This document shows positions 4,635-43,818 of a stretch of 51,014 nt of DNA, in pieces; position 1 is the first letter of the stretch, and every line of letters begins with the position of its first letter. The stretch spans positions 1-51,014 of the forward strand of contig DATIZR010000042.1 in the NCBI GenBank assembly GCA_035516965.1. The letters run 5' to 3'. The position numbers were made by a program, and so were the translations under genes. Origin of the DNA: Nitrospirota bacterium (GTDB lineage: Bacteria > Nitrospirota > UBA9217). The notes under the pieces are model-generated. The model was given only the letters and a program-made list of their open reading frames with translations. It had not been told where the DNA came from and did no database searches.

Positions 4635-4652
4635 AAGGCCCCTCTCCACTCA

Positions 4653-4686
4653 AGGCCCGCAGGGAGTGCTGACTGCGGGCCTTTTT
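4653..4686 (+). terminator. intrinsic terminator of the alcohol dehydrogenase gene
   Basis: A 10-bp perfect stem, AGGCCCGCAG / CTGCGGGCCT, with a 10-nt loop is followed by TTTTTG. It begins 19 nt after the stop codon. Confidence 0.88.
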
Positions 4687-4762
4687 GCATGTCCGATACC
4701 GGAACGTTTTGCTTACGCGCCGTGCCGCCGTTCTGATCAATCCCCCTCCCTAGGGAGGGCGG

Positions 4763-8991: not shown

Positions 8992-9262
8992 AATAACCAC
9001 GGATGAACAGGGTTAGAGACGTACAACGGGATGCAGCCACGGATGAACAAAGATAGATGCGGCTTCTAACCACAGATGAACACAGATGAACACGGATGAA
9101 ACCGGGAAAGGATCTTTTGAATTTCGTTTTTATGATCTGGAATTATTGTTTTAATATGCGCCATCTGTGATCATCTGTGGTTAAACCGGACTTGGTTATT
9201 TCGCATTACCGTGTTCATCCGCGGTTAACCTAATTCTTGTCTCTAGCCGTCCTGATCCGTGG
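8992..9262. repeat. cluster of ACGGATGAACAC-family inverted repeats
   Basis: The spacer between selB and selA is almost entirely repeat. Forward copies (ACCACGGATGAACAGG, GCCACGGATGAACAAAG, ACCACAGATGAACACAGATG) occupy about 8996-9100. Inverted copies (CATCTGTGATCATCTGTGG, GTGTTCATCCGCGGTTAA, GATCCGTGGTCAC) occupy about 9161-9265. The arms could fold into one large hairpin. The same family recurs at 37572-37651, and a relative is at 19811-19865. There is no gene inside. Confidence 0.75.
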
Positions 9263-26376: not shown

Positions 26377-27867
26377 GTGATAGCGATTCTTATAATACCC
26401 ATTGTCACCGCGATCGTCTGCTATCTGCTGAAGCGTCCGCGACTGATCGGCTACGCGAGCCTCGCCGGCGCCGTCAGCCTCGCGCTCTATGCCTTGCCGA
26501 CGATAACGGAATCGGTGTCCGCGCCGGTCGCGGCCATGGACGGCGCGTTCTCCCTGGACGCGCTCTCGGGCTACATCATGGCGCTCGTCATCTTCCTGAG
26601 CCTCGCCTCGGCGATCTACTCCATCAGCTATCTCGAACATGAGCTGGAAACGGGGCTCATAGAGCTCCGGGGGGTCCGGCGGTACTACGGCCTGCTGCAC
26701 CTCTTCATCTTCACCATGCTCCTCGTGACCATGGCGAACAACCTCGCCATCATGTGGATCGGCATCGAGGCCACGACCATCGTATCAGCGCTCCTCATCG
26801 GGCTGGGATTCCACAAGAGGCCGCTGGCGGTCGAGGCCGCGTGGAAGTACATCATCCTCTGCACCGTGGGCATCACCTTCGCGCTCCTCGGCACGTTCAT
26901 CACGTACTACGCCTCGACGGCGGTCATGGGCACCGAGGGAGCGCTCAACTGGACGGTGCTCAAACAGGTGGCCCCCCGGCTCAATCCCGAGACCATGAAG
27001 CTCGCGTTCATTTTTGTGCTCGTCGGTTACGGCACCAAGGCCGGCCTTGCGCCGGTGCACAACTGGCTGCCTGACGCGCACAGCCAGGCGCCGAGCCCCA
27101 TCAGCGCACTGCTCTCGGGCATCCTGCTCAATACCGCTTTCTACGGCATCATGCGTTTCGTCTCGATCGTCCAACCGTCGACCGGCGAGGTCTTTACCGG
27201 CAACCTGCTGATCATCTTCGGCCTCATCTCCATGGGCATCTCGGCCATCTTCATCCTGGTCCAGGAGAACTACAAGCGTCTCCTGGCCTACAGCAGCATC
27301 GAGCACATGGGCATCATCTCGCTCGGCGTCGGCATCGGCGGACCCATAGGCATCTACGGCTCGCTCCTTCATATTCTGAACCACGCGCTGGCAAAGCCGC
27401 TCATGTTCTTCGCCTCGGGCAGGATCCAGTCGCGCTTCGGCTCCACGAACATTGCGAACGTGAGCGGCGTGCTCTCCTCCATGCCGCTTCTCGGCACGCT
27501 GACCTTCATCGGCGCCCTGTCGCTCTCGGGCACGCCGCCCTTTAATATTTTTGTGAGCGAGTTCACGGTGCTGAAGGCGGGCGTAGACAAGGGACTCTGG
27601 CCTGTGGTGGCCATCTTCCTGCTCTTTGTGGTCATCGTGTTCTACGGCGTGCTGTCCGGGTTCGGGAAAATGCTGTTCGGAAGGCCGGACACCGCGAACC
27701 GTTCGGCAGAGCGGCATCACCCTGCTGCGGGCTTGAACGCGGGAAACGTGCTGAGCACCGGCATCATGATCGTGATGGCGATATTGGTCATTGTCATGGG
27801 CTTCAACGTGCCGGCCTTTATCGACGCTACGATCAGGACCTGCGTTCAGGTCGTGGGAGTGAAGTAA
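26377..27867 (+). CDS. Ehr complex 1 antiporter-like subunit, HyfF type (NuoM/N-like)
   Basis: The product is 496 aa with about 14 helices. The helix-5 Glu is in MWIGIEATTIVSALL, and the Lys and His of helices 7-8 in GYGTKAGLAPVHNWLPDAH. LKAGVDKGLW near the C-terminus is HyfF-like. It is the second ion-pump subunit of the complex. GTG start at 26377 just behind a repeat element. Its stop codon TAA shares one base with the ATG of the large subunit, so the two are translationally coupled. Confidence 0.87.
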   Translation: MIAILIIPIVTAIVCYLLKRPRLIGYASLAGAVSLALYALPTITESVSAPVAAMDGAFSLDALSGYIMALVIFLSLASAIYSISYLEHELETGLIELRGVRRYYGLLHLFIFTMLLVTMANNLAIMWIGIEATTIVSALLIGLGFHKRPLAVEAAWKYIILCTVGITFALLGTFITYYASTAVMGTEGALNWTVLKQVAPRLNPETMKLAFIFVLVGYGTKAGLAPVHNWLPDAHSQAPSPISALLSGILLNTAFYGIMRFVSIVQPSTGEVFTGNLLIIFGLISMGISAIFILVQENYKRLLAYSSIEHMGIISLGVGIGGPIGIYGSLLHILNHALAKPLMFFASGRIQSRFGSTNIANVSGVLSSMPLLGTLTFIGALSLSGTPPFNIFVSEFTVLKAGVDKGLWPVVAIFLLFVVIVFYGVLSGFGKMLFGRPDTANRSAERHHPAAGLNAGNVLSTGIMIVMAILVIVMGFNVPAFIDATIRTCVQVVGVK

Positions 27868-29435
27868 TGGATAGGGTCCTTAAGAAAGCGGTCACGGTCG
27901 TTGAGCATCTGAATGAGACCTATCTCGAGGTCAAACCGGATGATTTCAGGGACGTCTGCCGGTACCTGTCCGAAGAGCTGCATGGCCTGCTTCGGCTGAT
28001 GTTCGCGACCGACGAGCGGGAGCGGGACGGCGTGTTCAGGGTCTATGCCGTGTTCTCCGTTCCCGGCGTTGACCGGTTCTTTATCATTGTCCGTTCCGTG
28101 AGCGGGGACGATCCCCGGTTCTCTTCGTTGACCCCTCATGTTCCCGCGGCTCACTGGTACGAACGCGAGATCTACGATATGCTCGGCCTCGCTCCCGAAG
28201 GGCATCCGGACCAGCGCAGGCTCGTTTTCCACGAAGCATTCCCGGCAAATTCACATCCGCTCAGGAAAGACTGGAAGATCGGGCCGTCGGACATCAGGGA
28301 ATGGGGCGAGGGGATCATGGTGAAAGTCCCCCACCCTTTCATGGAAGTGGAAGGCGAGGGTATCGTCGAGATCCCCGTGGGCCCCGTGCATGCCGGCATC
28401 ATCGAGCCGGGACACTTCCGGTTCAGCGCCGTGGGCGAGACCATCTTCTTCCTGGAACCTCGGCTGTTCTATACGCACAAGGGGACGGAGAAGCAGTTCG
28501 AGACGCTCGGATTTATTGAAGGCGTCAAGCTGGCGGAGCGCGTTTCCGGCACCTCATCTTTCTCCCACGGTGCGGCGTACTGCATGGCGGTGGAGCGGAT
28601 GACCGGTACGGAGATCACGGAGAAGGCCTCGGCCGTGCGAACGCTCCTGCTCGAGCTCGAGCGGCTCTATAACCATATCGGCGATATCGGGAACATGTGC
28701 GCGGGGACGGCGCTCGCCGTGGGATACATGAAGGGCGCGGTCATCAAGGAACAGCTCATGCAGCTCAATGAGCGGCTCACCGGGAGCAGGTATCTTCGCA
28801 GCGCGAACATCATCGGCGGCGTCACGAAAGATGTGTTCGCCCGGGCCGACGATATCCTCAAGACGGTTGACGAAGCCACGAAGGATATTAAGGGGCTTAT
28901 GCAGCTGCTGCTCGGCTCGGTCTCGCACCGGGAGCGGTTGGAGAACACCGGACGTCTCTCAAAGGACATCGCGTTGAAGTTGGGCGTGACCGGTGTTGCC
29001 GCGCGGGCGTCGGGCCTGAACGACGATATGAGGAAGTCCCATCCGCACCTCCTGTACGACAGGATGATCTTCGAAGCCCATACCCATGAAAAAGGGGACG
29101 TGTTCGCCCGCATGATGGTCAGGTCTGAAGAGGCCGAGTGCTCCATCTCTATGATCCAGGCGCTCATTGAAAGCGGTTACAAAGGCGATCTGGCCGTTCC
29201 CGTGAAACGGGCGCTTCCCTATGCGTCTGCACTGGGCTATGCCGAGACCCCGCGCGGTTCGCTGTTCTACTGGGTGATGGCGGACAGGAACGGCAGACCG
29301 CTCAGGGTGAAGCTCCGCTCGCCGTCGTACTGCAACTGGCCCGCCGTGCCCTTCGCCGTGCACGGGAACATCGTGCCCGACTTCCCGCTCTGCAACAAGA
29401 GCTTTAATCTGTCGTACTCCGGGACGGATATGTGA
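27867..29435 (+). CDS. Ehr complex 1 large subunit (NuoC-NuoD fusion, HyfG/HycE-like) lacking all four Ni-ligand cysteines
   Basis: The product is 522 aa. Residues 1-140 are a NuoC-like domain ending with YEREIYDMLGLAPEGHPDQR. The rest is NuoD/hydrogenase-large-subunit-like (IPVGPVHAGIIEPGHFRF at 169-186). In true hydrogenases the first nickel motif is RxCGxCxxxH; here it is RVSGTSSFSH (225-234), so both Cys are Ser. The second motif DPCxxCTDR is NLSYSGTDM (514-522), with Ser516 and Gly519 in place of Cys, and the protein ends there with no cleavable tail. It therefore cannot hold a NiFe centre and is not a hydrogenase. The nearest described class is Ehr (energy-converting hydrogenase-related). 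Substrate unknown. Confidence 0.9.
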   Translation: MDRVLKKAVTVVEHLNETYLEVKPDDFRDVCRYLSEELHGLLRLMFATDERERDGVFRVYAVFSVPGVDRFFIIVRSVSGDDPRFSSLTPHVPAAHWYEREIYDMLGLAPEGHPDQRRLVFHEAFPANSHPLRKDWKIGPSDIREWGEGIMVKVPHPFMEVEGEGIVEIPVGPVHAGIIEPGHFRFSAVGETIFFLEPRLFYTHKGTEKQFETLGFIEGVKLAERVSGTSSFSHGAAYCMAVERMTGTEITEKASAVRTLLLELERLYNHIGDIGNMCAGTALAVGYMKGAVIKEQLMQLNERLTGSRYLRSANIIGGVTKDVFARADDILKTVDEATKDIKGLMQLLLGSVSHRERLENTGRLSKDIALKLGVTGVAARASGLNDDMRKSHPHLLYDRMIFEAHTHEKGDVFARMMVRSEEAECSISMIQALIESGYKGDLAVPVKRALPYASALGYAETPRGSLFYWVMADRNGRPLRVKLRSPSYCNWPAVPFAVHGNIVPDFPLCNKSFNLSYSGTDM

Positions 29436-29452
29436 CCAATCGCTCCGAGGAT

Positions 29453-29869
29453 ATGATGCAAAATCCACCACAGAGACGCAGAGACACGGAGAATACATAT
29501 TATTATGAAGGGCTGACGGAGAAGATCATTGCCTGCGCTATTGAGGTACATCGCCATCTTGGGCCTGGCCTGCTCGAATCAATATATGAAGAGTGCTTTT
29601 GTAAAGAATTACAACTCCAGGGCATGGTCTTCGATAACCAGGTGACGCTTCCCGTTGAATATAAAGGACTCCAGCTTGATTGCAGTTATCGGATGGATGT
29701 TGTGGTAGATAGAAAAGTGGTGGTGGAAATCAAATGCGTTGAAAAAATACTTCCAGTTCACGAAGCGCAGTTGTTGACCTATTTAAAACTATCCGGTTTG
29801 AAAGTGGGGCTGATGGTAAACTTTAACTCTGCCTTGCTGAAAGACGGAATCAAAAGACTCGTACGATAA
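29453..29869 (+). CDS. GxxExxY protein (PD-(D/E)xK-like, PDDEXK_3 family)
   Basis: The product is about 138 aa. The family core GLTEKIIACAIEVHRHLGPG then LLESIYEECF gives the GxxExxY motif, and MDVVVDRKVVVEIKCVEKI fits the D...ExK active-site pattern of this nuclease-like fold. Function is unknown; the family is scattered in many genomes as single inserted genes. The first codons (PPQRRRDTE) are read from the left repeat arm, and the stop lies one base before the right arm. ATG at 29453 or 29456; a GTG at 29432 overlapping the large-subunit stop is less likely. It interrupts hyfG and hyfI and is likely cargo. Confidence 0.85.
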   Translation: MMQNPPQRRRDTENTYYYEGLTEKIIACAIEVHRHLGPGLLESIYEECFCKELQLQGMVFDNQVTLPVEYKGLQLDCSYRMDVVVDRKVVVEIKCVEKILPVHEAQLLTYLKLSGLKVGLMVNFNSALLKDGIKRLVR

Positions 29870-29897
29870 CCTCTGTGTCTCTGAGACTCTGTGGTTG
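29465..29897. repeat. CACAGAG-family inverted-repeat element carrying the GxxExxY gene
   Basis: The left arm CCACCACAGAGACGCAGAGA continues with CACGGAGA (29465-29492). The right arm CCTCTGTGTCTCTGAGACTC continues with TGTGGTTG (29870-29897). Inverted, the arms match at most positions. The only gene between them is the GxxExxY protein. An empty relative is at 2850-2925. Confidence 0.75.
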
Positions 29898-29929
29898 TCT
29901 TCCGTACGTGTTATGCTGACGGAGCAGTC

Positions 29930-30463
29930 ATGTTTGAAGAAATACTAAAGAACGTGCTATCCAAGAAGAAGGTCATCCCGTTCCCGGAAGGCTTCACCAT
30001 CGCTCCCGAGCAGGAGGCGAAGATTGTTGACTTTCAGGAAAAGATTGATAGAATCTTCCATAGGTCGCTCCGGATCAGGCAGATCGATGCGGGATCATGC
30101 AACGCCTGCGAATGGGAATGTACGGCGCTCACGAACCCCATCTACGACATCCAGCGCTTCGGCGTCGATTTCGTGGCTTCTCCCCGGCATGCCGACGTGC
30201 TGCTCGTGACCGGGCCGGTATCGCGCCAAATGGAGCTTGCGCTGAAGCGGACCTATATCGCGACCCCGGAACCGAAGCTCGTTGTGGCCTGCGGCGACTG
30301 CGCAAGGGACGGCGGTATCTATAAAGGAAGCTACGCTGTCACCAACGGCGTCGCGAACGTCATTCCCGTCGACGGCTATATCCCCGGATGTCCACCGACG
30401 CCTGCGGCGATCCTGCTGGGACTTTCACGGATCATAGGCGAACTCATCGATAAACGGGCATGA
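29930..30463 (+). CDS. Ehr complex 1 small subunit (HyfI/HycG/NuoB-like), [4Fe-4S]
   Basis: The product is 177 aa. Cys57 and Cys60 (GSCNAC), Cys124 (GDCARDGG) and Cys154 (PGCPP) are the ligands of the proximal [4Fe-4S] cluster, equivalent to N2 in complex I. They are all kept although the partner large subunit has lost its nickel ligands. Electrons can therefore still reach the cluster, but the donor or acceptor is unknown. The start is MFEEIL with GGAG 6 nt upstream. This gene ends the first hyfBCEFGI set; the second set starts 117 bp later. Confidence 0.9.
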   Translation: MFEEILKNVLSKKKVIPFPEGFTIAPEQEAKIVDFQEKIDRIFHRSLRIRQIDAGSCNACEWECTALTNPIYDIQRFGVDFVASPRHADVLLVTGPVSRQMELALKRTYIATPEPKLVVACGDCARDGGIYKGSYAVTNGVANVIPVDGYIPGCPPTPAAILLGLSRIIGELIDKRA

Positions 30464-30579
30464 GGTCGTGTACGAAGAGTCGCAGAAAGAGCAAGGACCT
30501 GCGAGACCCGTGGCGGCCCTTTTCCCTGAACTGATCGGTTTCGGCTTCACCATGCAAGCATAGCCAGGAAGGTAGGGAC

Positions 30580-32622
30580 GTGCTTCTTACACCTGTCAGT
30601 ATCCTATTCGTGTCCTTTGCGGCGCTTCTGCTCCTTCTTGCGCTCATCCCCTTCCTGCGTCGGAACCAGCGTCTCCTCATAACCACCGGTTTTTCCCTTG
30701 CGGCCGTCGCCGCGTTCTTTGCCGCGATCGCCGGCGTTTGGACCGTGGCCGCCAACATCGTGGAGAAGGTCATCATACCCATCGGCCTGCCGGACCTTCC
30801 CTTTCACTTGAGGCTCGACCTGCTGTCCGGCTATTTTCTCGTCGTCGTCGGAGCGCTGGCCTTCTTCGTCTCCCTTTACTCCATCGGCTATGTCAAAGGC
30901 TTCCTGGGCCACCGGCCGGTGACCAGTCTCGTCGTCTTTTATGCCCTGTTCCTCGCGGGAATGTTTCTTGTGGTCCTCGCGGATGACGCCTTGTTCTTCC
31001 TGATCGCCTGGGAAATGATGGCCGCGGCATCGTATTTCCTCGTCCTCTTCGAGGATGAGAAGATCGAGAACAGGAGGGCCGCATTCCTCTATCTCGTCGT
31101 TGCCCACGTGGGCGCGATCGCGATCCTCCTGTCCTTCGGCATCCTGGCAGGCCTCGCCACCGGCTTCAAGGGATTTGAAGGCTATACCTTCGACAGCATG
31201 CGCGAGGCGGAACTTCCCGCCGGCTGGGCTTCCCTGGCATTCCTGCTCGCTTTTTTCGGTTTTTCGGCAAAGGCGGGCGTGATCCCGCTCCACGTGTGGC
31301 TGCCCGAGGCGCATCCCGTGGCGCCGTCGAACGTGTCGGCGTTGATGAGCGGCGTGATGCTCAAGACCGCCATCTACGGGATCATCCGGGTCGTCTTCGA
31401 CCTCATCGGCGTGTTCCCCTGGTGGTGGGGCGCGGTCGTTCTGGTCTTCGGTCTCATCTCCGCGGTCATGGGCGTCCTCTATGCCCTGATGCAGCACGAT
31501 CTGAAAAGGCTCCTGGCGTACCACTCGGTCGAGAACATCGGCATCATCCTCATCGGCGTCGGCCTTGCCATGATCTTTTATTCCTTCGACATGTCCCTGC
31601 TCGCCGCGCTCGCGCTGATAGCCGGCCTCTATCACACGTTGAACCATGCTATGTTCAAGGGACTGCTCTTCATGGGTGCCGGGGCCGTGCTCCATGCCTC
31701 CCATGAGCGGAACATGGAGGAGATGGGCGGTCTCATCCGCTTCATGCCCTGGACGGCCGTCCTCTTTCTGGTCGGCTGCATCTCCATCTCGGCGCTCCCG
31801 CCCTTCAACGGGTTCGTGTCGGAATGGCTGACCTACCAGGCGTTCCTGCTTTCCCCGTCGCTTCCCAGCCCGCTCCTGAACCTGCTCATCCCGCTGGGCG
31901 CCGCGCTGCTGGCGCTCACCAGCGCCCTCGCCGCCGCCTGTTTCGTGAAGGCCTTCGGCGTCACGTTTCTGGGGCAGCCGCGCGGGCATCATCACGGAGG
32001 CGTGCATGAGGTCCGCTGGTCCATGCGCATCGGCATGCTGCTGGCGGCGCTCACCTGCCTGGGCCTCGGCGTTCTGCCCACCGTCATGCTCAGGTGGATG
32101 GACCCCCTGGCCGAAGAACTGGTAGACGGGACCGTCGCCGCCTCGGCATCCGGTTTCGGCTGGATGTGGCTCACGCCCATCGCGGCGGAGCGGGCCTCCT
32201 ATTCGGCGCCGATCGCGTTCCTGGGCATCCTGTCCGTGGTGGTCGTGACCTACCTGCTGCTCCATTCGCGCCGCAGCGCCATCCACCGGGCGCCGCTCTG
32301 GGACTGCGGGTTCGAGAAGGTGACGAACCGGATGCAATATACGGCCACGTCCTTTTCCATGCCGCTCAGGCGTATCTTCGGTTTTCTCTTCAGCATCAAG
32401 GAAAAAGTGAGCCAGCTCCCGCCCGCGACCCATCCCGCTTTCCCCGAGCGGCTGCAGTATCATCTCCGGGTCAGGGACCGCTTCTGGGGTTGGATGTACC
32501 AGCCGGTGGTCGACGCGAGCTTCTGGCTGTCGCGCAGGATCGGCAGGATGCAGCATGGCCGGATCCAGATCTATCTCATCTATTCGTTCGTGACGATCCT
32601 GGTGCTGCTTATATTTTCGTGA
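30580..32622 (+). CDS. Ehr complex 2 antiporter-like subunit, HyfB/NuoL type
   Basis: The product is 680 aa and parallels the protein at 21942-23933 over its length. It has the helix-5 Glu in AWEMMAAASYFLVLF, the Lys in GFSAKAGVIPLHVWLPEAH, and HTLNHAMFKGLLFMGAG. The C-terminal region is longer and has a different loop (QPRGHHHGGVHEV). Sequence divergence from copy 1 is large throughout, so the duplication is old or the sets have separate origins. GTG start at 30580 behind AGGAAGGTAGGG. It opens the second six-gene set. Confidence 0.87.
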   Translation: MLLTPVSILFVSFAALLLLLALIPFLRRNQRLLITTGFSLAAVAAFFAAIAGVWTVAANIVEKVIIPIGLPDLPFHLRLDLLSGYFLVVVGALAFFVSLYSIGYVKGFLGHRPVTSLVVFYALFLAGMFLVVLADDALFFLIAWEMMAAASYFLVLFEDEKIENRRAAFLYLVVAHVGAIAILLSFGILAGLATGFKGFEGYTFDSMREAELPAGWASLAFLLAFFGFSAKAGVIPLHVWLPEAHPVAPSNVSALMSGVMLKTAIYGIIRVVFDLIGVFPWWWGAVVLVFGLISAVMGVLYALMQHDLKRLLAYHSVENIGIILIGVGLAMIFYSFDMSLLAALALIAGLYHTLNHAMFKGLLFMGAGAVLHASHERNMEEMGGLIRFMPWTAVLFLVGCISISALPPFNGFVSEWLTYQAFLLSPSLPSPLLNLLIPLGAALLALTSALAAACFVKAFGVTFLGQPRGHHHGGVHEVRWSMRIGMLLAALTCLGLGVLPTVMLRWMDPLAEELVDGTVAASASGFGWMWLTPIAAERASYSAPIAFLGILSVVVVTYLLLHSRRSAIHRAPLWDCGFEKVTNRMQYTATSFSMPLRRIFGFLFSIKEKVSQLPPATHPAFPERLQYHLRVRDRFWGWMYQPVVDASFWLSRRIGRMQHGRIQIYLIYSFVTILVLLIFS

Positions 32623-32635
32623 TAAGGACTGTCCG

Positions 32636-33580
32636 TTGAACATCAATCCGTTCCTCATAGAGCTGGTTCAGATCGCCGTTCTCCTCGCACTTGCTCCGGC
32701 CTTTGCCGGCTGGGTAAAGATGGTGAAGTGCTGGTTCCAGGGCCGCACGTCGCCGAGCCTGTTCCAGCCCTACCGGGACATCATGAAGTTGTTCGCCAAG
32801 GACGTGACGCTGGCGGAGAACGCCTCGTGGATATTCCGATTCACGCCGTACCTCGTGTTCGGCGTTTCGGTCCTGGCCGGCGGGATCATCCCGATCCTTT
32901 CCGCGGACCTGCCGCTCTCCGCCACGGCCGATGTCATAGCCCTGGTGGCGCTCTTTGCCATAGCCCGGTTCTTTACGGCGCTGGCGGGCATGGACATCGG
33001 CACGGCCTTCGGCGGAATGGGGTCGAGCCGCGAGATGACCATTGCGTCGCTTGCCGAGCCTGCCATGCTGATGGCCGTGTTCGCCGTTTCCCTCGTGAGC
33101 AAATCCACGTCGCTCTCCCAGATAACCCATGTCATCTCCCAGGGACACGCGATGCTGAGGCCGTCGCTGGTTTTCGCGCTCCTGGCGTTCGTCCTGATCG
33201 CCCTGGCAGAAACGGGCAGAGTGCCGGTGGACAATCCCGCCACCCACCTGGAGCTGACCATGATCCATGAGGCGATGATCCTCGAGTATTCGGGGAGACA
33301 CCTCGCGCTTATCGAGTGGGCGGGAATGATGAAGCTGTTCCTCTTCGTCGTCCTGGGGATTGCCTCGTTCTTTCCCTGGGGGATCGCGATGGACGACGAT
33401 GCGACCGCACTTCTTGCAGCCTTGCCGGTGCTACTGCTCAAGCTCGCCGTCGTGGGGGTCGGCCTGGTCATGATCGAGACCGGCCTGGCGAAGATGCGGA
33501 TCTTCCGGATTACCGAGTTCCTGGGGAGCGCCTTCCTGTTCGCAACGCTCGGCATGTTGTCGTACTTCATGCTGGAGTAG
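32636..33580 (+). CDS. Ehr complex 2 membrane subunit, HyfC/HycD/NuoH type
   Basis: The product is 314 aa with about 8 helices. It has SPSLFQPYRDIMKLF in place of the GPGVLQPYYDLI loop of copy 1, MGSSREMTIASLAEP, and ETGRVPVDNPATHLEL. It begins with TTG at 32636, supported by AAGGA 7 nt upstream; no ATG or GTG is suitably placed. The gap to hyfB is 13 bp, so the two are co-translated. Confidence 0.87.
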   Translation: MNINPFLIELVQIAVLLALAPAFAGWVKMVKCWFQGRTSPSLFQPYRDIMKLFAKDVTLAENASWIFRFTPYLVFGVSVLAGGIIPILSADLPLSATADVIALVALFAIARFFTALAGMDIGTAFGGMGSSREMTIASLAEPAMLMAVFAVSLVSKSTSLSQITHVISQGHAMLRPSLVFALLAFVLIALAETGRVPVDNPATHLELTMIHEAMILEYSGRHLALIEWAGMMKLFLFVVLGIASFFPWGIAMDDDATALLAALPVLLLKLAVVGVGLVMIETGLAKMRIFRITEFLGSAFLFATLGMLSYFMLE

Positions 33581-33664
33581 ATAGGTAAAATACCGAAAGG
33601 GGACTCGAACCCGGGATTTTCCCCGGGCGATCATGCTTTGTTCATGCACTGAAAGAGGAATGAT

Positions 33665-34330
33665 ATGAATGTACAGCTTGCCTCACAGCTCAACAGCCTC
33701 CTGGCGGCACTGATCCTGCTGACGACGTTCGGCCTTCTGGTGCAGAAGAGGATGAACGCCCTCTTGCATCTCTTCGCGCTGCAGGGCTTCCTGCTCGCCG
33801 TGAGCACCGCCATGGTTGGTTTCGTCGGCGGGGCCCATGATCTGTATATTTCATCCATCCTGACCCTGGCGACGAAGGTCGTGGTCCTGCCCTATATCCT
33901 TCATGTGCTTATCCAGAAATTAAGGATCCACAAAGAAGTGGAAACGGTCGTGAAGATCCCCACGACCATGCTGATGGGGATCGTGCTGGTGATATTCTCC
34001 TATCACCTGACCGCGCCCATCCGGGAGCTTTCAACGCTCGTGACCAAATCGACGCTCGCCGTAGCCCTCGCCACCGTCATGCTCGGCTTCTTGATGATGA
34101 TCACCCGCAAGCACGCGGTCACGCAGATCATCGGGTTCCTCGCCATGGAGAACGGGCTGCTGTTCGCCGCCACGAGCGCGACCTACGGCATGCCCCTCGT
34201 CGTGGAGCTCGGCGTGGCCCTGGACCTGTTGATCGCCGCGTTCATCTTCGGGATGTTCTTCTTCCATATCAGCACGGCCTTCGACAGCCTTGATGTCGAC
34301 CAGATGGCGAGGCTGAAGGAAGAGGATTGA
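33665..34330 (+). CDS. Ehr complex 2 membrane subunit, HyfE type
   Basis: The product is 221 aa with 6-7 helices. It has the HyfE core MITRKHAVTQIIGFLAMENGL, matching copy 1 in the same place, and it ends with a short acidic tail. The start is ATG behind GAAAGAGGAA. The 84-bp spacer before it contains a short tRNA T-arm-like sequence but no repeat element of the copy 1 type. Confidence 0.85.
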   Translation: MNVQLASQLNSLLAALILLTTFGLLVQKRMNALLHLFALQGFLLAVSTAMVGFVGGAHDLYISSILTLATKVVVLPYILHVLIQKLRIHKEVETVVKIPTTMLMGIVLVIFSYHLTAPIRELSTLVTKSTLAVALATVMLGFLMMITRKHAVTQIIGFLAMENGLLFAATSATYGMPLVVELGVALDLLIAAFIFGMFFFHISTAFDSLDVDQMARLKEED

Positions 34331-34405
34331 CGCTGCCGTAAAGGTAAAATGCAAATTGAATCTTTTACTTCTGACTTTAAACGTTGAACTTGATATGAGG
34401 TCCTG

Positions 34406-35854
34406 ATGGCCCTTCTGATTCTCCTCTGCGTTCCGCTCTTCGCTGCCATGGCGCTGGGCTTCATCGGCGACCGGAAGATCGCGGCCGAAATGAACATCGT
34501 CGGCTCCGGGGCCACCTTTGTCGCGAGCGTCGGGCTGGCGTTCCAGGTCTATGAGCAGGGACCGATGCTGGCCTGGGACAACTTCTTCTTTGTCGATGCC
34601 TTCAGCGTCTACCTCACGGTCCTCACCGCCTTCGTCTCCATGACCACGGCGATCTTCAGCAGGCGCTACATGCGCCGCGAACGCGAACACGGCACGCTCG
34701 GGCCACGGAGGATGCGCTTCTACCACGCCATGTTCCAGCTCTTCATCTTTGCCATGCTGCTCTGCCTCCTGACGAACAATGTCGGCATCCTCTGGATCGC
34801 CATGGAACTGGCGACGCTGTCCACGGTCCTGCTCGTGTCCCTCTACCGCACCCCGGCCGCGATCGAGGCGGCATGGAAATACTTCATCCTCTGCGGCGTC
34901 GGCATCGCGCTCGCGCTGTTCGGGACGGTGCTGCTGTACTTTGCCGCTGAAAAGGTGCTGGGCGCCGGCGGCGCGGCGCTTCACTGGACGAATCTCGCCC
35001 AGGTGAGCGACAAACTGGAACCGACCATCCTGTCCCTGGCCTTTGTGTTCCTCATGGTCGGGTACGGCACCAAGGTCGGTCTCGTGCCGGTCCACAACTG
35101 GCTTCCCGATGCGCACAGCGAAGGCCCGACCCCGATCTCGGCCGTTCTCTCCGGCCTTCTGCTCAATATCGCGCTCTACGCGCTCGTCCGCTGCAAGGTC
35201 CTTGTAGACGGGTCCACGGGCACGCACCATTCGGGCAGCATCATGATGGGCTTCGGCATCCTGTCGATCATCGTGGCCTCCTTTTCCCTCCTGCGGCAGA
35301 AGGACATCAAAAGGCTGTTCGCGTACTCGTCCATCGAGCACATGGGCATCGCCACGTTCGCCTTCGGTCTCGGCGGCCCGGTGGCGACCTTCGGCGCACT
35401 CCTGCACATGCTGGTCCACAGCCTGACCAAATCATCCATATTCTTCACCGTGGGCCATGCCTCCCAGATGCACAGGACGCAGGACATGGAGAAGATCAAG
35501 GGACTGATCAGGGGCAATCCCCTGGTCGGGTGGGGCATGGCGCTCGGCGTCATGGCGATCGTCGGGATGCCTCCCTTTGGCGTGTTCACCAGCGAATTCC
35601 TGATCCTCACGGCCACGATCAAGGACGCGCCGCTCATGGCGCCGTTCCTTCTGCTGGGGCTCGGGGTCTCCTTTGCAGCGCTCTTCAGGAGAGTGCAGCC
35701 CATGGTGGCGGGAAGCATACCGGGCTACCAGCACCGAATCAAGGCGGCGCATATTCCCGTTCTGCTGCACATGGCGGTGGTTCTTTGTCTCGGGCTGTAT
35801 ATGCCGAAATTCCTTGCCGGGTGGTTCCATACGGCGGTTGGACTCTTGAAGTGA
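34406..35854 (+). CDS. Ehr complex 2 antiporter-like subunit, HyfF type
   Basis: The product is 482 aa with about 14 helices. The helix-5 Glu is in LWIAMELATLSTVLLV, and the Lys/His pair in GYGTKVGLVPVHNWLPDAH. There is a HMGIATFAFGLGG segment as in other HyfF proteins. GAGGT lies before the ATG. Together with HyfB it gives two pump subunits per complex, fewer than complex I, which has three. Confidence 0.87.
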   Translation: MALLILLCVPLFAAMALGFIGDRKIAAEMNIVGSGATFVASVGLAFQVYEQGPMLAWDNFFFVDAFSVYLTVLTAFVSMTTAIFSRRYMRREREHGTLGPRRMRFYHAMFQLFIFAMLLCLLTNNVGILWIAMELATLSTVLLVSLYRTPAAIEAAWKYFILCGVGIALALFGTVLLYFAAEKVLGAGGAALHWTNLAQVSDKLEPTILSLAFVFLMVGYGTKVGLVPVHNWLPDAHSEGPTPISAVLSGLLLNIALYALVRCKVLVDGSTGTHHSGSIMMGFGILSIIVASFSLLRQKDIKRLFAYSSIEHMGIATFAFGLGGPVATFGALLHMLVHSLTKSSIFFTVGHASQMHRTQDMEKIKGLIRGNPLVGWGMALGVMAIVGMPPFGVFTSEFLILTATIKDAPLMAPFLLLGLGVSFAALFRRVQPMVAGSIPGYQHRIKAAHIPVLLHMAVVLCLGLYMPKFLAGWFHTAVGLLK

Positions 35855-35896
35855 AAACCTTTTTCGACACGGAGACACGGTGAGATAGTATAGTGT

Positions 35897-35964
35897 CTTG
35901 ACACTGATTTGCACTGATGACCTATGACCTTACTGTGGAAATCATAGGCTATCACAGTGTCAAG
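35897..35964. repeat. nested perfect inverted repeat before the second large-subunit gene
   Basis: An outer stem CTTGACACTG / CAGTGTCAAG (10 bp, perfect) encloses an inner stem CCTATGA / TCATAGG. The structure ends 26 nt before the hyfG start and could act on the mRNA or be another small repeat element. Confidence 0.6.
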
Positions 35965-35990
35965 GAATCACGTTTCGAAGTGAGTTTGAC

Positions 35991-37562
35991 ATGGGCAGGC
36001 TGAAAGAAACCATACAAAAAGCACTCGGCGAAGAGGCAAAGCTGCTTGAAGACCAGCAGCCCTCCTCCGTTGCCGCCTTTCTCGTGCCGAGGAACCGGTT
36101 CGCGGAAGCGGCAAAGGCGCTCAAGAAGGAATACGCGCTGCTCGCGGCAGAGTGGGCGACTGACGAGACCCCGTTCGGGAGGGGGTTCGGGGTATTCGCC
36201 TGCTTTCGCAAGGAGTCGGAATATCTCCTGGTGAAGACCTTCGCGCCGGTTGATGACCCAACCTTTCCGAGCCTCACGAAAAAATTTGTCCCAGCCTACC
36301 GGTTCGAACGACAGATGAAAAGCCTCATGGGGGTAACGCCAATCGGTCATCCTGACATGAGGCCCTGGATCAAGCACGAGGACTGGCCGGAGGACGCCTG
36401 GCCGCTCAGGAAGTCCTTCGACGCGTCACAGCGCCTGCCGAGGGTCTACGGAGAGTACCGCTGGGTCCGGGCGGAGGGCGAGGGGGTCTATGAAATTCCC
36501 GTGGGCCCGGTACATGCCGGCATTATCGAGCCCGGGCATTTCCGGTTCCAGGCCATGGGCGAGGATATCCTCAACCTCGAGGAAAAGCTCGGCTATGTGC
36601 ATAAGGGGATCGAAAAAAGGTTCGAGTCCCTCTCCTGGCGCGATGCGTCGCGCCTTGCCGGCAGGGTTTCGGGCGACACTACCGTTGCGCACGCTCTGGC
36701 GTACTGCCGGGCGGTGGAGGCCCTGACCGGGAGTACTCCTCCGGACCGCGCGCTGTGGCTCCGGGCGCTGTTCCTCGAGCGGGAGCGCATAGCGAACCAC
36801 CTCGGTGATCTGGGCGCCATCTGCAACGACGTCGCCTTCGCAATCCTCTGGTACCATTTCATGCGGATCAAGGAAGCGATCCTGCGCACGAACCTCAAGC
36901 TCTTTGGCCATCGCTTTATGATGGACAGGATCGTTCCCGGCGGCGTGTCCGTTGATGTCGGGGAGGACGGCGTTCAGGCCATTCTCTCCGAAATGGATTG
37001 GCTCGCACCGGAGTTCGAGCGCCTCGTCCGGATCTACGATGAAAATTCTTCCGTCGAGGACCGGGTGAGGGACACCGGCGTTCTCTCATCGGAAAAGGCG
37101 CGGGACCTCGGCATGGTGGGCTTCGTGGCAAGGGCAAGCGGGTTGAACCTCGACTGCCGCATCCACAATCCCTTTCCTCCCTACGACCGCATCAGCGTGG
37201 CAGTCTCCGTGCTTGTCTCCGGCGATGTGCATGCCCGGGCATGGGCCCGCGTGGAAGAGGTCCGTGACTCGATCCGGATCATCCGCGAGATCCTGAAGTC
37301 CATGCCCGCCGGAGCCACGGAGGTCCCATCCGGTACGCCGCTTCCGGACCGGGCAGGGTTCTCGGCTGTCGAGGGCTGGCGGGGGGAGATCCTGTACTGG
37401 GTCCAGTCAGGGCCGAAGGGGGAGATCAACCGCTGCATGGTCAGGGACCCGTCGAGCGTAAACTGGCTGGGTCTGGAGCAGTGCATCCACGGGAACATCG
37501 TGCCCGACTTCCCGCTGTGCAACAAGAGCTTCAACCAGTCGTACTCGGGGAACGACCTGTAA
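35991..37562 (+). CDS. Ehr complex 2 large subunit (NuoC-NuoD fusion) lacking all four Ni-ligand cysteines
   Basis: The product is 523 aa. IPVGPVHAGIIEPGHFRF is at residues 169-186, as in copy 1. The first nickel motif reads RVSGDTTVAH (225-234), with Ser227 and Thr230 in place of Cys. The second reads NQSYSGNDL (515-523), with Ser517 and Gly520. The loss of ligands is therefore shared with copy 1 at the same positions but not identical. The NuoC-like domain is more worn than in copy 1: the EREIYDMLG motif is ERQMKSLMG. ATG start. No hydrogenase maturation genes are nearby. Confidence 0.9.
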   Translation: MGRLKETIQKALGEEAKLLEDQQPSSVAAFLVPRNRFAEAAKALKKEYALLAAEWATDETPFGRGFGVFACFRKESEYLLVKTFAPVDDPTFPSLTKKFVPAYRFERQMKSLMGVTPIGHPDMRPWIKHEDWPEDAWPLRKSFDASQRLPRVYGEYRWVRAEGEGVYEIPVGPVHAGIIEPGHFRFQAMGEDILNLEEKLGYVHKGIEKRFESLSWRDASRLAGRVSGDTTVAHALAYCRAVEALTGSTPPDRALWLRALFLERERIANHLGDLGAICNDVAFAILWYHFMRIKEAILRTNLKLFGHRFMMDRIVPGGVSVDVGEDGVQAILSEMDWLAPEFERLVRIYDENSSVEDRVRDTGVLSSEKARDLGMVGFVARASGLNLDCRIHNPFPPYDRISVAVSVLVSGDVHARAWARVEEVRDSIRIIREILKSMPAGATEVPSGTPLPDRAGFSAVEGWRGEILYWVQSGPKGEINRCMVRDPSSVNWLGLEQCIHGNIVPDFPLCNKSFNQSYSGNDL

Positions 37563-37571
37563 AACGATTAT

Positions 37572-37651
37572 GGTAACCACGGGCGCTTCGCGCACACAGA
37601 TGAACACAGGTCAAGACTAAACGGTTCTATCCGTGTTCATCCGTGGTTACC
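37572..37651. repeat. ACGGATGAACAC-family hairpin element, empty
   Basis: GGTAACCACGG (37572-37582) and GATGAACACAGG (about 37599-37610) pair with CCGTGTTCATCCGTGGTTAC at 37631-37650. The arms are a near-perfect inversion, with a small GGGCGCTTCGCGC hairpin inserted in the left arm. It lies between the large and small subunit genes of set 2. Confidence 0.72.
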
Positions 37652-37673
37652 GTTGTGTTCGGTTTGGAGTCTT

Positions 37674-38246
37674 ATGATCCGCATTCTCAAACAGATATTC
37701 CGCACCGGCGTCGTCACCGAGCCGCTCCCAGCCGTCATTGATCCGGAGATCGAGAAGATCGGCGTGCAACTGGAGGAAGCCGTCCGGAGGCGCTTCAAGC
37801 GAAGCCTCACGATCCGCCAGGTGGATCCCGGCTCCTGCAACGGCTGCGAGCTCGAGATCCATGCCATCAACAACCCCATTTACAACTGCGAGCGCTTCGG
37901 CATCCACTTCACCGCTTCGCCCCGGTTCGCCGACCTGCTGCTCGTCACGGGTCCGGTCTCGCATAACATGGAAATAGCGCTCACGCGGACCTACAACGCG
38001 ACGCCGACTCCGAAGATCGTCATCGCCGTGGGAGACTGCGGGTGCACGGGCGGCGTGTTCGGAGAGAGCTATGCGTCGCTGGGCCCGGTCAACAAGGTCA
38101 TCCCCGTGGACGCATGCATTCCCGGGTGCCCGCCGACGCCGACGGCTCTGCTGCAGGGCATCCTGAAAGCGCTCGAGGGCAGGGGAGCGCCAGGGGTCAT
38201 GAAAGACGCCGCGGGAAGCACCGACAGCCGGGAGGGGAGCAAATAA
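37674..38246 (+). CDS. Ehr complex 2 small subunit (HyfI/HycG/NuoB-like), [4Fe-4S]
   Basis: The product is 190 aa. Cluster ligands are Cys55 and Cys58 (GSCNGCELE), Cys122 (GDCGCTGG) and Cys152 (PGCPP), all kept. CNGCELE is the classical form of the motif, while copy 1 has CNACEWE. The C-terminus carries a hydrophilic extension (RGAPGVMKDAAGSTD). The start is MIRILK behind GGAG. It is the last gene of the second set. Confidence 0.9.
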   Translation: MIRILKQIFRTGVVTEPLPAVIDPEIEKIGVQLEEAVRRRFKRSLTIRQVDPGSCNGCELEIHAINNPIYNCERFGIHFTASPRFADLLLVTGPVSHNMEIALTRTYNATPTPKIVIAVGDCGCTGGVFGESYASLGPVNKVIPVDACIPGCPPTPTALLQGILKALEGRGAPGVMKDAAGSTDSREGSK

Positions 38247-38278: not shown

Positions 38279-38494
38279 AAAAGGCGATTAGTTGTTATGA
38301 ATCAAATTCATCTCATAACGGCAAAAAAATTTCCTGCAGAGTCGCAGGGCTCGCAGAGGAAGGATCAATATCTTGGGTTAGAATCAAGACTTGAAGGTTT
38401 TGATTTAACGCTGCGTTCTCCGCATGCTCTGCGAGAGACGCCTTTTGTTTCCGGCCTGTCCGGGTTATGACATAATCTGAAGAGGGGGTTGAGA

Positions 38495-38818
38495 ATGAAG
38501 AAAATATCTGCTCTTGGACTTGCTGTTCTGTTCTGCCTGTGCATGCCTTTCGTCGCTGCTGCAGAAAAGGTAGGGGGGGGTGATCTGACCTTCAAACCGA
38601 AGGGAGCGGCGCCGGTCGTCTTCAGTCATGAATACCATGTCAACGCCAAAGGGCTGAAATGCACGGGCTGCCATTACCAGGTGTTCCAGATGACCCAGGG
38701 GTCCTACAAGATGGACATGAGCAAACTGACCAAGGGCGACTTCTGCGGGAAATGCCACAACGGCCAGAAGTCCTTCGACGTGAAGGATACGAAGAACTGC
38801 ACGAAATGTCATAAATGA
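38495..38818 (+). CDS. periplasmic triheme c-type cytochrome (cytochrome c7 family)
   Basis: The product is 107 aa. A signal peptide (MKKISALGLAVLFCLCMPFVAAA) is followed by a small domain with three CxxCH haem sites: CTGCH (56-60), CGKCH (84-88) and CTKCH (102-106). VVFSHEYHV supplies the distal histidines of the c3/c7 fold. Such proteins shuttle low-potential electrons in the periplasm. It lies between the second Ehr set and the formate dehydrogenase operon, so it may link periplasmic formate oxidation to other carriers; that is inference. ATG at 38495, preceded by AGAGGGGG. Confidence 0.9.
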   Translation: MKKISALGLAVLFCLCMPFVAAAEKVGGGDLTFKPKGAAPVVFSHEYHVNAKGLKCTGCHYQVFQMTQGSYKMDMSKLTKGDFCGKCHNGQKSFDVKDTKNCTKCHK

Positions 38819-40761: not shown

Positions 40762-43700
40762 ATGCAGGTAACACGAAGACAGTTTTTCAAGATTTCTGCA
40801 GCTGGACTGGGGGCTTCCAGTGTTGCGGCGCTCGGTTTTGCGCCGGATAATGCGCTGGCAGAAGTGCGGGAGTTCAAGCTCTCCCGCAGCACCGAGACCC
40901 GCAATACCTGTCCTTACTGTTCGGTGAGCTGCGGCTTGATCATGCACAGCATGGGGGACAAGGCAAAAAACGCCGAGCTGTCCATCTTCCACATCGAAGG
41001 CGACCCCGACCATCCGGTGAACCGCGGCACCCTCTGCCCGAAGGGCGCGGGGCTGGTGGATTTCGTCCACAGTCCGAACAGGCTCAAGTACCCGGAATAC
41101 CGCGCCCCCGGGACGAATGAATGGAAACGCATTTCCTGGGACGAGGCGTTTACCAAGATCGCACGGCTGATGAAAGACGACCGGGACAAGAACTTCATTG
41201 CAAAGAACGCAGACGGCGCCGTGGTCAACCGCTGGCTGACCACGGGATTCCTTGCAGCCTCCGCTTCCAGCAACGAAACCGGTTACATCACTCACAAGGC
41301 GGTCCGCAGCACCGGCATCCTTGCATTCGACAATCAGGCGCGAGTTTGACACGGCCCCACGGTGGCCAGTTTGGCCCCTACGTTCGGCCGCGGCGCGATG
41401 ACCAACCACTGGGTTGACATCAAGAACGCCAATGTCGTCATCGTCATGGGTGGAAACGCTGCCGAAGCCCACCCCTGCGGATTCAAATGGGTGACCGAGG
41501 CTAAAGCGCATAATCACGCCACGCTCATCGTGATCGATCCCCGCTTCACCCGTTCGGCCTCGGTGGCGGACCTCTATGCCCCGCTTCGCACCGGCACGGA
41601 CATCGCTTTCCTTGGAGGGCTGGTCAACTATCTGCTCTCTGCCGACAAGATCCAGCACGAATACGTCAAGGCCTACACGGACGCAAGTTTCATCGTGCGC
41701 GAGGACTTCAATTTCGATGACGGCCTGTTCTCCGGATACGACTCTGCCAAACGCTTGTACGAAAAAACCAGCTGGATGTACGAAATGGGGAAGGACGGCT
41801 TTGCCAAGGTAGACCCCACCCTGAAACATCCCCGATGCGTGTTCCAAATGCTGAAGAAGCACTATGCCCGGTACACGCCGGAAGCGGTGAGCAATATCTG
41901 CGGTACGCCCAAAGACACGTTCCTCAAGGTCTGCGAGATCGTCGCCACCACGTCTGTGCCGGACAGGACGCTCACCATCATGTACGCCCTGGGCTGGACC
42001 CAGCACTCCGTCGGTTCGCAGATGATCCGCACCGCAGCCATGATGCAGCTCCTCCTGGGCAACATAGGCATGGCAGGCGGCGGCATGAACGCCTTGCGCG
42101 GCCACTCCAATATCCAGGGCCTCACCGACCTGGGCCTTTTGTCCAACCTTCTGCCCGGTTACCTCACCCTGCCGGGGGACAAGGAGACGGATTACCAGGC
42201 ATACATCAACAAGCGGGCGCTCAAGCCCCTGCGGCCCGGCCAGCTGTCCTATTGGCAGAACTACACCAAGTTCCATGTCAGCCTGATGAAGGCCTGGTTC
42301 GGCGATGCCGCAACGAAAAAGAACAACTGGTGCTTCGACTGGCTGCCCAAGCTGGACAAGGTATACGACGTGCTCCAGACGTTCGAGCTAATGAACCAGG
42401 GCAAGCTGAACGGCTACTTCTGCCAAGGCTTTAACCCGCTCGCCGCCTTCCCCAACAAAGCGAAAATCGGCGGGGCCCTGGCCAAGCTCAAATATCTGGT
42501 CGTGATCGACCCCCTGGCCACGGAAACCTCATGCTTCTGGGAAAACCACGGCGACCACAACGACGTGGACCCCGCGAAGATCCAGACCGAGGTCTTCCGT
42601 CTTCCCTCCACCTGCTTCGCCGAGGAGAACGGGTCGCTCACCAACAGCGGCCGATGGCTGCAATGGCACTACAAGGGCGCCAACCCGCCCGAAGAAGCCA
42701 GGCCCGACGCCGACATCGTTGCCGGCATCTTTCTGAAGCTGCGCGAGCTGTACAAAAAGGAGGGCGGCGCGTTCCCTGACCCGATCCTGAACCTTACCTG
42801 GAACCATAAGATCCCGCTTGAGCCGGCCCCTGAGGAACTGGCGATGGAGTATAGCGGCAAGGCGCTGGAGGACGTGACCGACCCCAAGGACAAGACCAAG
42901 GTCCTGGTGAAGAAAGGCCAGCAGCTGGACGGGTTCGGCCAGCTGAAGGACGACGGCACCACGAGCTGCGGGTGCTGGCTATTCTCCGGCTCCTGGACCG
43001 AGAAGGGCAACCTGATGGCTCGGCGGGATAATTCCGATCCCTCCGGCCTGGGCAACACGCTCAACTGGGCGTTCTCCTGGCCTGCCAACCGGCGCATCCT
43101 GTACAACCGCGCTTCCAACGATCCGTCGGGAAAACCGTGGGACCCGAAGCGCAAGTTGATCGGCTGGAACGGCGCCGCATGGACCGGCGTGGATGTTCCT
43201 GACTTCAAGCCGGACGTGCCGCCGGGCGATCCTATGAACCCCTTCATCATGAACCCCGAAGGAGTGGCGCGGCTGTTCGCCGTGGACAAGATGGCGGAAG
43301 GCCCGTTCCCCGAGCACTACGAGCCCTTCGAGACGCCTATAGACACCAATCCGCTTCACCCCAAAGTTGTCAGCAACCCGGCTGCGCGGGTGTTCAAGAA
43401 CGATTTTGATGCTTTCGGCAAGAGCAAGGATTTCCCTTATGCCGGCACCACGTACCGCCTGACCGAGCACTTCCACTTCTGGACCAAGCACACAAAGCTT
43501 TCATCCATCGTGCAGCCCGAGCAGTTCGTGGAGATCGGCGAGGAACTGGCCAAAGAAAAAGGCATCAAGGCCGGCGACTGGGTCAAGGTGTGGTCCAACC
43601 GCGGCTTCATCAAGGCGAAGGCGTTGGTGACCAAACGCATCATACCGCTCCAGGTGAACGGCAAGACCGTGCATCACGTGGGCATCCCGATCCACTGGGG

Positions 43701-43818
43701 CTTTAAAGGCGTCGCCAAGAACGGCTACATCGCCAACACCCTGACCCCGTACGTGGGCGATGCCAACGTGCAGACGCCGGAGTTCAAATCCTTCCTCGTC
43801 AACATCGAAAAGGCATAG
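40762..43818 (+). CDS. fdnG: formate dehydrogenase-N catalytic subunit, selenoprotein (UGA at 41347-41349 = Sec196)
   Basis: The product is 1018 aa when the in-frame TGA at codon 196 is read as selenocysteine; without this the gene would look like two frames. A Tat signal (TRRQFFK) targets it to the periplasm. Cys50, 53, 57 and 92 bind a [4Fe-4S] cluster. Sec196 sits in [20 protein letters not shown], which matches E. coli FdnG including the Sec position. The C-terminal molybdopterin-binding domain is complete ([20 protein letters not shown]). It oxidises formate to CO2 and passes electrons through FdnH and FdnI to menaquinone. The ATG follows GGGAGGG. Confidence 0.97.
41361..41378 (+). promoter_or_regulatory. 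bacterial SECIS element
   Basis: GG-T-GGCC-AGTTT-GGCC-CC: a stem with a single bulged U and a loop containing GU. It begins 11 nt after the UGA. In E. coli fdhF the equivalent hairpin also begins 11 nt after UGA and has the same bulged U and a GU loop, which SelB recognises. Confidence 0.9.

Follow-up and report, generated by a model that had tools for sequence, protein, structure and literature searches.

What can a membrane complex built like a [NiFe] hydrogenase do when its large subunit carries no nickel ligand? The question is raised by the window, a stretch of 51,014 nucleotides of a Nitrospirota bacterium (assembly GCA_035516965.1, contig DATIZR010000042.1, forward strand), which holds two full six-gene Ehr operons, A then B, in tandem on its + strand (Table 1). 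The founding Ehr papers are reportedly those of Coppi and of Marreiros (2013). Systems already described under this name (Ech-hydrogenase-related) in Geobacter sulfurreducens (GSU0739-45), Nitrospirales and ammonia-oxidising archaea have, as far as excerpts of the literature go, the same kinds of subunit and the same loss of [NiFe] ligands, and excerpts from papers of 2023 and 2025 call the function of the family unknown (PMC10284858, PMC10432482, PMC12342949). The window complexes are almost certainly of this type and not hydrogenases. They are new members of a described family, not a new kind; the strongest new point of the analysis is the existence of relatives whose small subunit, EhrS, lacks the ligands of its iron-sulphur cluster.

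An earlier reading of the window, made from its letters alone (the sequence-only reading), had seen RVSGxx at residues 225-230 of both large subunits (EhrL) in place of CGxC, and NLSYSG or NQSYSG in place of DPCxxC, with no tail to be cleaved. HMMER alignment with E. coli HycE (7z0s) agrees: RVSGTSSFSH pairs with RVCGICGFAH, and FNLSYSGTD with LDPCYSCTD. Both proteins end three residues past SYSG and have no C-terminal tail, whereas E. coli HycE and HyfG carry an extension of 32 amino acids. An intact CxxC elsewhere would have told against that reading; according to the full Cys lists (residues 31, 239, 278, 425, 489 and 509 in copy A; 71, 239, 278, 389, 482, 498 and 510 in copy B) there is none in either protein. 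This is no chance finding, as the family behaves alike. We compared 110 Ehr-type rows, namely the 114 matches above 150 bits in the collected loci (window counted once) less two complex I proteins, one other hydrogenase-like protein and locus L076. All four ligand columns are covered in 108 of them; 106 of the 108 have no ligand Cys, two have a single one (L025, L040), and none has a C-terminal tail. This accords with the sequence-only reading, and with excerpts of PMC12342949, PMC10284858, PMC10432482 and PMC13194489, in ascribing to Ehr complexes the absence of the four [NiFe] Cys.

To place the two copies, a tree of 69 rows was built with the Ni-ligand columns masked (L198 omitted). It included the Geobacteraceae metagenome-assembled genome L085 and no experimentally named Geobacter EhrL. 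The window proteins grouped with Ehr, apart from HycE/HyfG and NuoCD, in a 61-row group (support 100/100) that also takes in the four-Cys forms described below and loci L201, L202, L204 and L208. Copy A belongs to a Nitrospirota clade of its own (six rows, 100/100), and copy B lies inside the main Ehr clade (44 rows, 84/17) with other Nitrospirota and the Geobacteraceae genome (100/98). The two EhrL are 40% identical, which, together with their separate clades, rules out a recent tandem duplication; by sequence, A and B are old, deep paralogs. The A-then-B order recurs whole in genome G003, and in G005 and G008, where both contigs end inside the first B gene. In the window's own genome and 60 relatives, taken as Nitrospirota from their nearest named loci, a copy-B query (E 1e-60) hit 42 and a copy-A query (E 1e-140) ten. 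Ehr is widespread: the rows of a first tree bear 22 phylum labels.

Seven rows of the tree form a further clade (100/98) in which the ligands are present. In the Bacillota, locus L076 (Peptococcaceae BRH_c4a) and seven others of the same class (L194-L200; 14 of 113 genomes of that class matched) have CxxC intact at both sites (CAAC at the first site of L200). As in the window EhrL there is no tail and the backbone reads DFPLINKSF (VPDFPLINKSF or IPDFPLINKSF), and L076 has the window's six-gene order. They differ by the two Cys pairs and by ferredoxin-type Cys motifs in EhrS (only the last two genes being visible in L194-L200). L076 departs from the Ehr consensus at 11 of the positions that at least 85% of Ehr share; three of these 11 (227, 516, 519) are ligand sites and a fourth (229) lies between two. 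Such a form has already been noted for Desulfotomaculum ruminis (Desru_3260-3265) in an excerpt of PMC3569383. Loci L201, L202, L204, L206 and L208, also of L076's class, have partly or wholly lost the Ni ligands and end in different tails, such as FAESDR or VADCDR; all except L206, which was not placed, form a separate group in the tree. Approximately unbiased tests on the masked alignment rejected neither a grouping of the A clade with main Ehr (p 0.38) nor one of the four-Cys clade with main Ehr (p 0.23). In a quick tree that kept the ligand columns, L076 branched off before the whole set of 108 Cys-less rows (SH-aLRT 96), a placement which those columns favour. Thus, of the earlier claim that the ligands were lost at the same sites, their absence at the same sites in A and B stands, and the Cys may have gone either once or separately in the two lineages.

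The Ni-free pocket of EhrL is, on its alignment columns, conserved and not decaying. Among the 110 rows (about 89 effective), S227 is present in 96%, G228 in 100% and D229 in 89% (copy A has Thr at 229, unlike described Ehr), position 230 being looser (S 42%, T 32%). Around the second motif N510, K511, S512, Y517 and D521 reach 100%, S516 99% and G519 98%. The four-Cys forms share the N510/K511/S512 triplet, which was therefore rejected as diagnostic of a Ni-free pocket. Simple estimates of dN/dS are mostly about 0.1, at 0.07-0.15 in 13 of 14 pairs with open reading frames (ORFs) ending near the gene; the fourteenth, L089/L090, gave 0.22 at a dS of 0.11, and dS exceeded 1 in seven of all 17 pairs. 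The other three pairs, among L109-L111 (0.26-0.40), are unusable as their frames extend some 330-490 codons past the gene. These frames of about 1000 amino acids had been considered as large-subunit/antiporter fusions. In two of the three genomes they overlap the neighbouring genes in other frames (L134, L135), so the extra length was taken to be open frame preceding the start, the L109 genome lying outside that comparison. The AlphaFold model of copy A (mean predicted local distance difference test score, pLDDT, 90.9) matches HycE (7z0s) best, with a template modelling (TM) score of 0.93, and complex I next; its low-confidence part is the loop 173-180, which holds H175.

These data bear on two explanations that would make the complexes either dead or hydrogenases after all. 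That they are non-functional relics, drifting since the loss of the catalytic site, is hardly credible. Excerpts of PMC13194489 call Ehr non-functional for Geobacter and report that two ehr genes carry missense mutations in adapted strains; no catalytic metal site is left, and the copy-A EhrL of G008 is split across two frames in the assembly. The purifying dN/dS values and the near-invariant pocket columns speak against that statement, as do six-gene operons in many phyla and the detection of Ehr proteins in G. sulfurreducens, at higher levels on formate than with hydrogen (PMC7894505, in excerpt). Hydrogenase activity of the window complexes is very unlikely, given the missing Ni ligands and the occurrence of Ehr in genomes without HypD. 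Among genomes of at least 90% completeness and no more than 5% contamination, 10 of the 29 bearing Ehr lack HypD, which incompleteness could hide in some, and over 41 such genomes the association of Ehr with HypD is not significant (Fisher p 0.18). A hydrogenase holding nickel by other ligands, Ser or C239/C278/C509, is very improbable too. These non-motif Cys do recur at the same sites in both copies, and the window's own genome encodes HypD. It also encodes one true [NiFe] large subunit elsewhere, so that its HypD says nothing by itself on Ehr. The three Cys occur together in only 28 of the 110 rows and were dropped as a conserved metal site; C239 varies, being Ala or Ser in five of ten copy-B relatives of the same family. 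The absence of a tail counts against this alternative as well, although the four-Cys forms also lack one, and Ehr expression in N. moscoviensis is reported, in an excerpt of PMC12342949, not to be raised by H2.

The single most likely reading, to which as a whole we give an even chance, is a redox-driven ion pump. A soluble low-potential donor would dock directly on EhrS, whose single [4Fe-4S] cluster would pass the electron on to a small acceptor sitting in the pocket of EhrL. The resulting change, of charge or of conformation, where EhrL meets NuoH would then lead to H+ (or Na+) transport via the antiporter-type subunits, and no H2 would be made or consumed. For the pump positions we took NuoM E144, K234, K265 and E407 and NuoH E157, D213, E216, E220 and E228, in the numbering of E. 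coli, whose proteins supplied the residues. In each operon both antiporter-type subunits have the equivalents of NuoM E144, K234 and E407; that of K265 is kept except in the HyfF-like subunit, which has Asn, as does E. coli HyfF. Equivalents of NuoH E157, D213, E220 and E228 are likewise kept in both operons, and that of E216, variable family-wide, is Asp in one copy and Ala in the other. This conservation supports the window complexes' competence for ion pumping. Both window EhrS retain all four proximal [4Fe-4S] Cys, in the CxxC spacing of hydrogenases and unlike the CC of NuoB. Among the 12 window subunits, CxxC pairs occur only in EhrS and CxxCH occurs in none. The ferredoxin-type Cys motifs of EhrS in L076, whose gene order is that of the window, and in L194-L200 also count in favour of this reading.

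Several findings weigh against a redox drive. No ORF of at least 40 amino acids with a CxxCxxCxxxC motif lies in either operon, the only one between 18 and 50 kb being FdnH; as neither operon encodes a ferredoxin-type relay, no redox centre can be recognised apart from the one [4Fe-4S] site. Many Ehr have fused ferredoxin domains with incomplete Cys motifs, and no partner gene is shared at many loci, the largest cluster of non-core genes occurring at 11 of 81. FdnGHI, 2.5 kb past operon B, was rejected as a dedicated partner, being found at 0 of 29 relative loci (among which L124/L125 share a contig and L137/L139 a genome), a weak check in that several of these end near the operon; in L139 both ORFs directly before fdnG have relatives. 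Nor is the cluster itself universal. Of 96 EhrS rows, 86 read CCCC at the ligand columns (one being the four-Cys L076), and L033 reads PCCC, judged a local shift and not counted as cluster-less. The remaining nine are without most ligands (TCDD in five; DCDD, TEGD, SEGD and DTDN in one each). They lie in Ehr operons, at L027 (EhrS at 4290-4880), L028, L046, L052, L056, L065, L068, L077 and L078, and are labelled Daviesbacteria, Levybacteria, Staskawiczbacteria, Patescibacteria, "bacterium", Thermoleophilia (L065, possibly misbinned) and Bathyarchaeota (L077). Cluster-less relatives retain the EhrL pocket and most pump residues, which suggests that electron transfer is not needed by every member of the family.

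Of 379 genomes of L027's phylum, 13 matched the L027 EhrS used as query (E 1e-15). Where visible, ligands are missing in 11 of the 13 (one partial; four are re-finds of earlier loci), with T/E/D/D, D/C/D/N and D/A/D/N as further sets; the two with CCCC (L190, L191) are both distant. The proximal Cys of EhrS are also replaced at L181, L182, L184, L185, L188 and L189. Replacements are mostly Thr or Asp, also Glu, Gly, Asn, Ser or Ala. In the 69-row tree seven Patescibacteria-type rows group together (89/99) and L077 stands apart, beside Nitrososphaerota (95/74), so that two losses are the simplest reading. The cluster-less L027 EhrS is still modelled in a NuoB-type fold (mean pLDDT 90.1; TM 0.88 by target length to the MBH small subunit, 6cfw_J). 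Nine cluster-less EhrS differ in consensus from 19 cluster-bearing ones at five sites only, three of them ligand Cys, among columns at least 85% conserved in the latter. A cluster-less set of 12 loci, nine with EhrS on the contig, keeps the E144 and K234 equivalents in all nine NuoL-like and 11 NuoN-like rows, E407 being Lys in three of the 11. The operon order in the Patescibacteria-type bacteria, where complete, is S-N-H-E-N-L. ATP synthase genes flank four loci of this set and 0 of 69 others (Fisher p 0.0003, relatedness uncorrected): L027, L046, L052 and L036, the first three with EhrS on the contig, L036 being of the same EhrL clade with EhrS off the contig. Ten of the 12 loci have no ORF with a ferredoxin motif; L056 and L065 have one each. 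Among the matches listed in open-licence literature, the excerpts seen held no mention of Ehr or hydrogenase-like complexes without a small-subunit cluster.

The sequence-only reading had proposed that ions are pumped by a redox reaction other than that of H2. The part excluding H2 is supported, and so, by the conserved pump residues, is a competence for ion pumping; the redox drive is called into question by the missing relay subunit and the cluster-less relatives, leaving it one of two live readings. The other is that Ehr is an ion transporter (for instance exchanging H+ and Na+), or carries out gradient-linked non-redox chemistry in the EhrL pocket, on an inherited hydrogenase-shaped arm with a structural or regulatory cluster. 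Since some members of the family do without the relay and even without the last cluster, and no redox partner gene accompanies Ehr widely, we regard this as unlikely but serious. The persistence of pocket and pump beside replaced EhrS ligands, the few consensus changes in EhrS, the ATP synthase neighbours and the scarcity of ferredoxin motifs in the cluster-less set all fit it. Against it stand the four Cys of the window EhrS and of the 86 rows, and the two complete ferredoxin motifs retained in L020, L071, L054 and L029; moreover, the forms without a cluster may represent a derived offshoot. A more far-reaching version, which we advance tentatively and as doubtful, is that the family as a whole is a complex-I-type machine that left redox chemistry: the Ni site went first, the ferredoxin relay next and, in two lineages, the remaining [4Fe-4S] ligands after that, while pocket and pump stayed. 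If so, the window twins would be ion transporters or gradient-linked non-redox enzymes with a structural or regulatory cluster.

A complex-I-like quinone reductase, in which electrons of a soluble donor would reduce menaquinone at the EhrL/EhrS interface, is improbable. EhrL and EhrS do score with the NuoD and NuoB models, the fold also matches complex I, and H175 and H183 are conserved in 100% and 98% of rows. Yet all 110 Ehr rows have Gly where complex I has the Tyr of its first motif (DRIEY in E. coli NuoCD), which we take to bind the quinone head group, and cluster-less relatives could not reduce quinone. A redox-driven pump is still likeliest for the window complexes because they keep the cluster. 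The cluster-less relatives make it directly testable whether Ehr is a redox enzyme at all. Four-Cys and Cys-less EhrL with cluster-bearing and cluster-less EhrS form a natural series within one protein family, which can test whether complex-I-type pumps need electrons; the answer matters for the coupling of chemistry to ion transport in complex I and for the relationship of complex I to hydrogenases.

Among known systems, E. coli formate hydrogenlyase and hydrogenase 4 have homologous subunits and the closest solved fold. HycE and HyfG have the four Cys and the C-terminal extension, both missing from the window EhrL. The hyc and hyf operons hold an extra Fe-S subunit, HycF/HyfH, which we take to be of ferredoxin type, and hyc a maturation protease; the window operons have no HycF/HyfH-type subunit. 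Respiratory complex I is homologous in modules and pump residues; by comparison the window operons lack a NuoI-like Fe-S subunit and any NADH-module gene, and have Gly for the quinone-site Tyr. MBS, the membrane-bound sulfane-sulfur reductase of Pyrococcus, has a group-4-like large subunit (E 5.8e-32 between 6u8y_L and copy A) and presumably keeps two of the four Cys, against none in Ehr. The window differs from described Ehr in having two deeply diverged tandem copies in one genome. Excerpts of PMC6349859, PMC3578206, PMC5037454, PMC6688271, PMC8542988 and PMC5220378 also touch on the topic.

Table 1. Features of the two Ehr operons in the window.
Feature	Coordinates	Strand	Evidence
Ehr-A NuoL/HyfB-like antiporter-type membrane subunit, 663 aa	21942..23933	+	NCBIfam hydrogenase 4 subunit B, 675.7 bits, above cut-off
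Ehr-A NuoH/HyfC-like membrane anchor, 305 aa	24121..25038	+	Pfam NADHdh, 151.5 bits
Insert in operon A: four-helix-bundle/IVP ORF (25078-25458) flanked by inverted repeats	25063..25506	+	TIGR02436; repeats
Ehr-A HyfE-like membrane subunit, 224 aa	25505..26179	+	NCBIfam hydrogenase 4 membrane subunit, 88.1 bits, below cut-off 136
Ehr-A HyfF/NuoN-like antiporter-type subunit, 496 aa	26377..27867	+	Pfam Proton_antipo_M, 191.1 bits; hydrogenase 4 subunit F, 462 bits, below cut-off
Ehr-A large subunit EhrL, NuoC+NuoD/HycE-like, 522 aa, no Ni ligands	27867..29435	+	ORF, profile matches, HycE alignment, AlphaFold model
Copy A residues 225-230, RVSGTS for CGxC	28539..28556	+	HycE alignment
Copy A residues 516-519, SYSG for CxxC	29412..29423	+	HycE alignment
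Insert in operon A: GxxExxY (PD-(D/E)XK) ORF (29432-29869), inverted repeats 29467-29491 and 29871-29895	29432..29895	+	TIGR04256; repeats
Ehr-A small subunit EhrS, NuoB/HycG-like	29891..30463	+	Pfam Oxidored_q6; ligand columns CCCC
Ehr-B NuoL/HyfB-like subunit, 680 aa	30580..32622	+	NCBIfam hydrogenase 4 subunit B, 831 bits, above cut-off
Ehr-B NuoH/HyfC-like subunit	32636..33580	+	In blast cluster of A copy (58 loci including window)
Ehr-B HyfE-like subunit	33665..34330	+	In blast cluster of A copy
Ehr-B HyfF-like antiporter-type subunit	34406..35854	+	In blast cluster of A copy; E144/K234/E407 equivalents kept
Ehr-B large subunit EhrL, 523 aa, no Ni ligands	35991..37562	+	ORF, profile matches; 40% identity to copy A
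Copy B residues 225-230, RVSGDT for CGxC	36663..36680	+	
Copy B residues 517-520, SYSG for CxxC	37539..37550	+	
Ehr-B small subunit EhrS, four [4Fe-4S] Cys	37653..38246	+	Oxidored_q6; CCCC; TTG start listed, ATG at 37674

Both operons have the gene order NuoL-, NuoH-, HyfE- and HyfF-like, EhrL, EhrS, and the two small inserts of operon A were taken as lying outside the complex. The four-helix-bundle/IVP insert, with A+T-rich inverted repeats, is shared with the relative G005 (L136:200-850) and absent at that place in G003. The GxxExxY ORF occurs in four other places of the own genome; the three examined (L209, L210, L211) all have long inverted repeats around it, some 380-550 nucleotides apart and of different sequence each time, and together these look like a family of small mobile elements. 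The repeat CCGTGTTCATCCGTGG, present in the window at 37630-37648 and 8995-9226, has 47 places in the own genome at one mismatch or fewer (0 for the reversed control) and also makes the inverted repeats around the GxxExxY ORF of L211.

Past operon B lie a c7-type triheme cytochrome gene (nanowire_3heme domain; 38489-38818) and then a selenocysteine formate dehydrogenase gene, fdnG (40762-43818), with an in-frame TGA and a SECIS_3 match at 41344-41402; the window also has a tRNA-Sec gene (279-373, - strand). A TauE/SafE-type exporter gene (18762-19793) recurs near Ehr operons of both types (L007, L012, L066, L126, L129); in L007, L012 and L066 genes of clusters c15 and c9 follow it each time.

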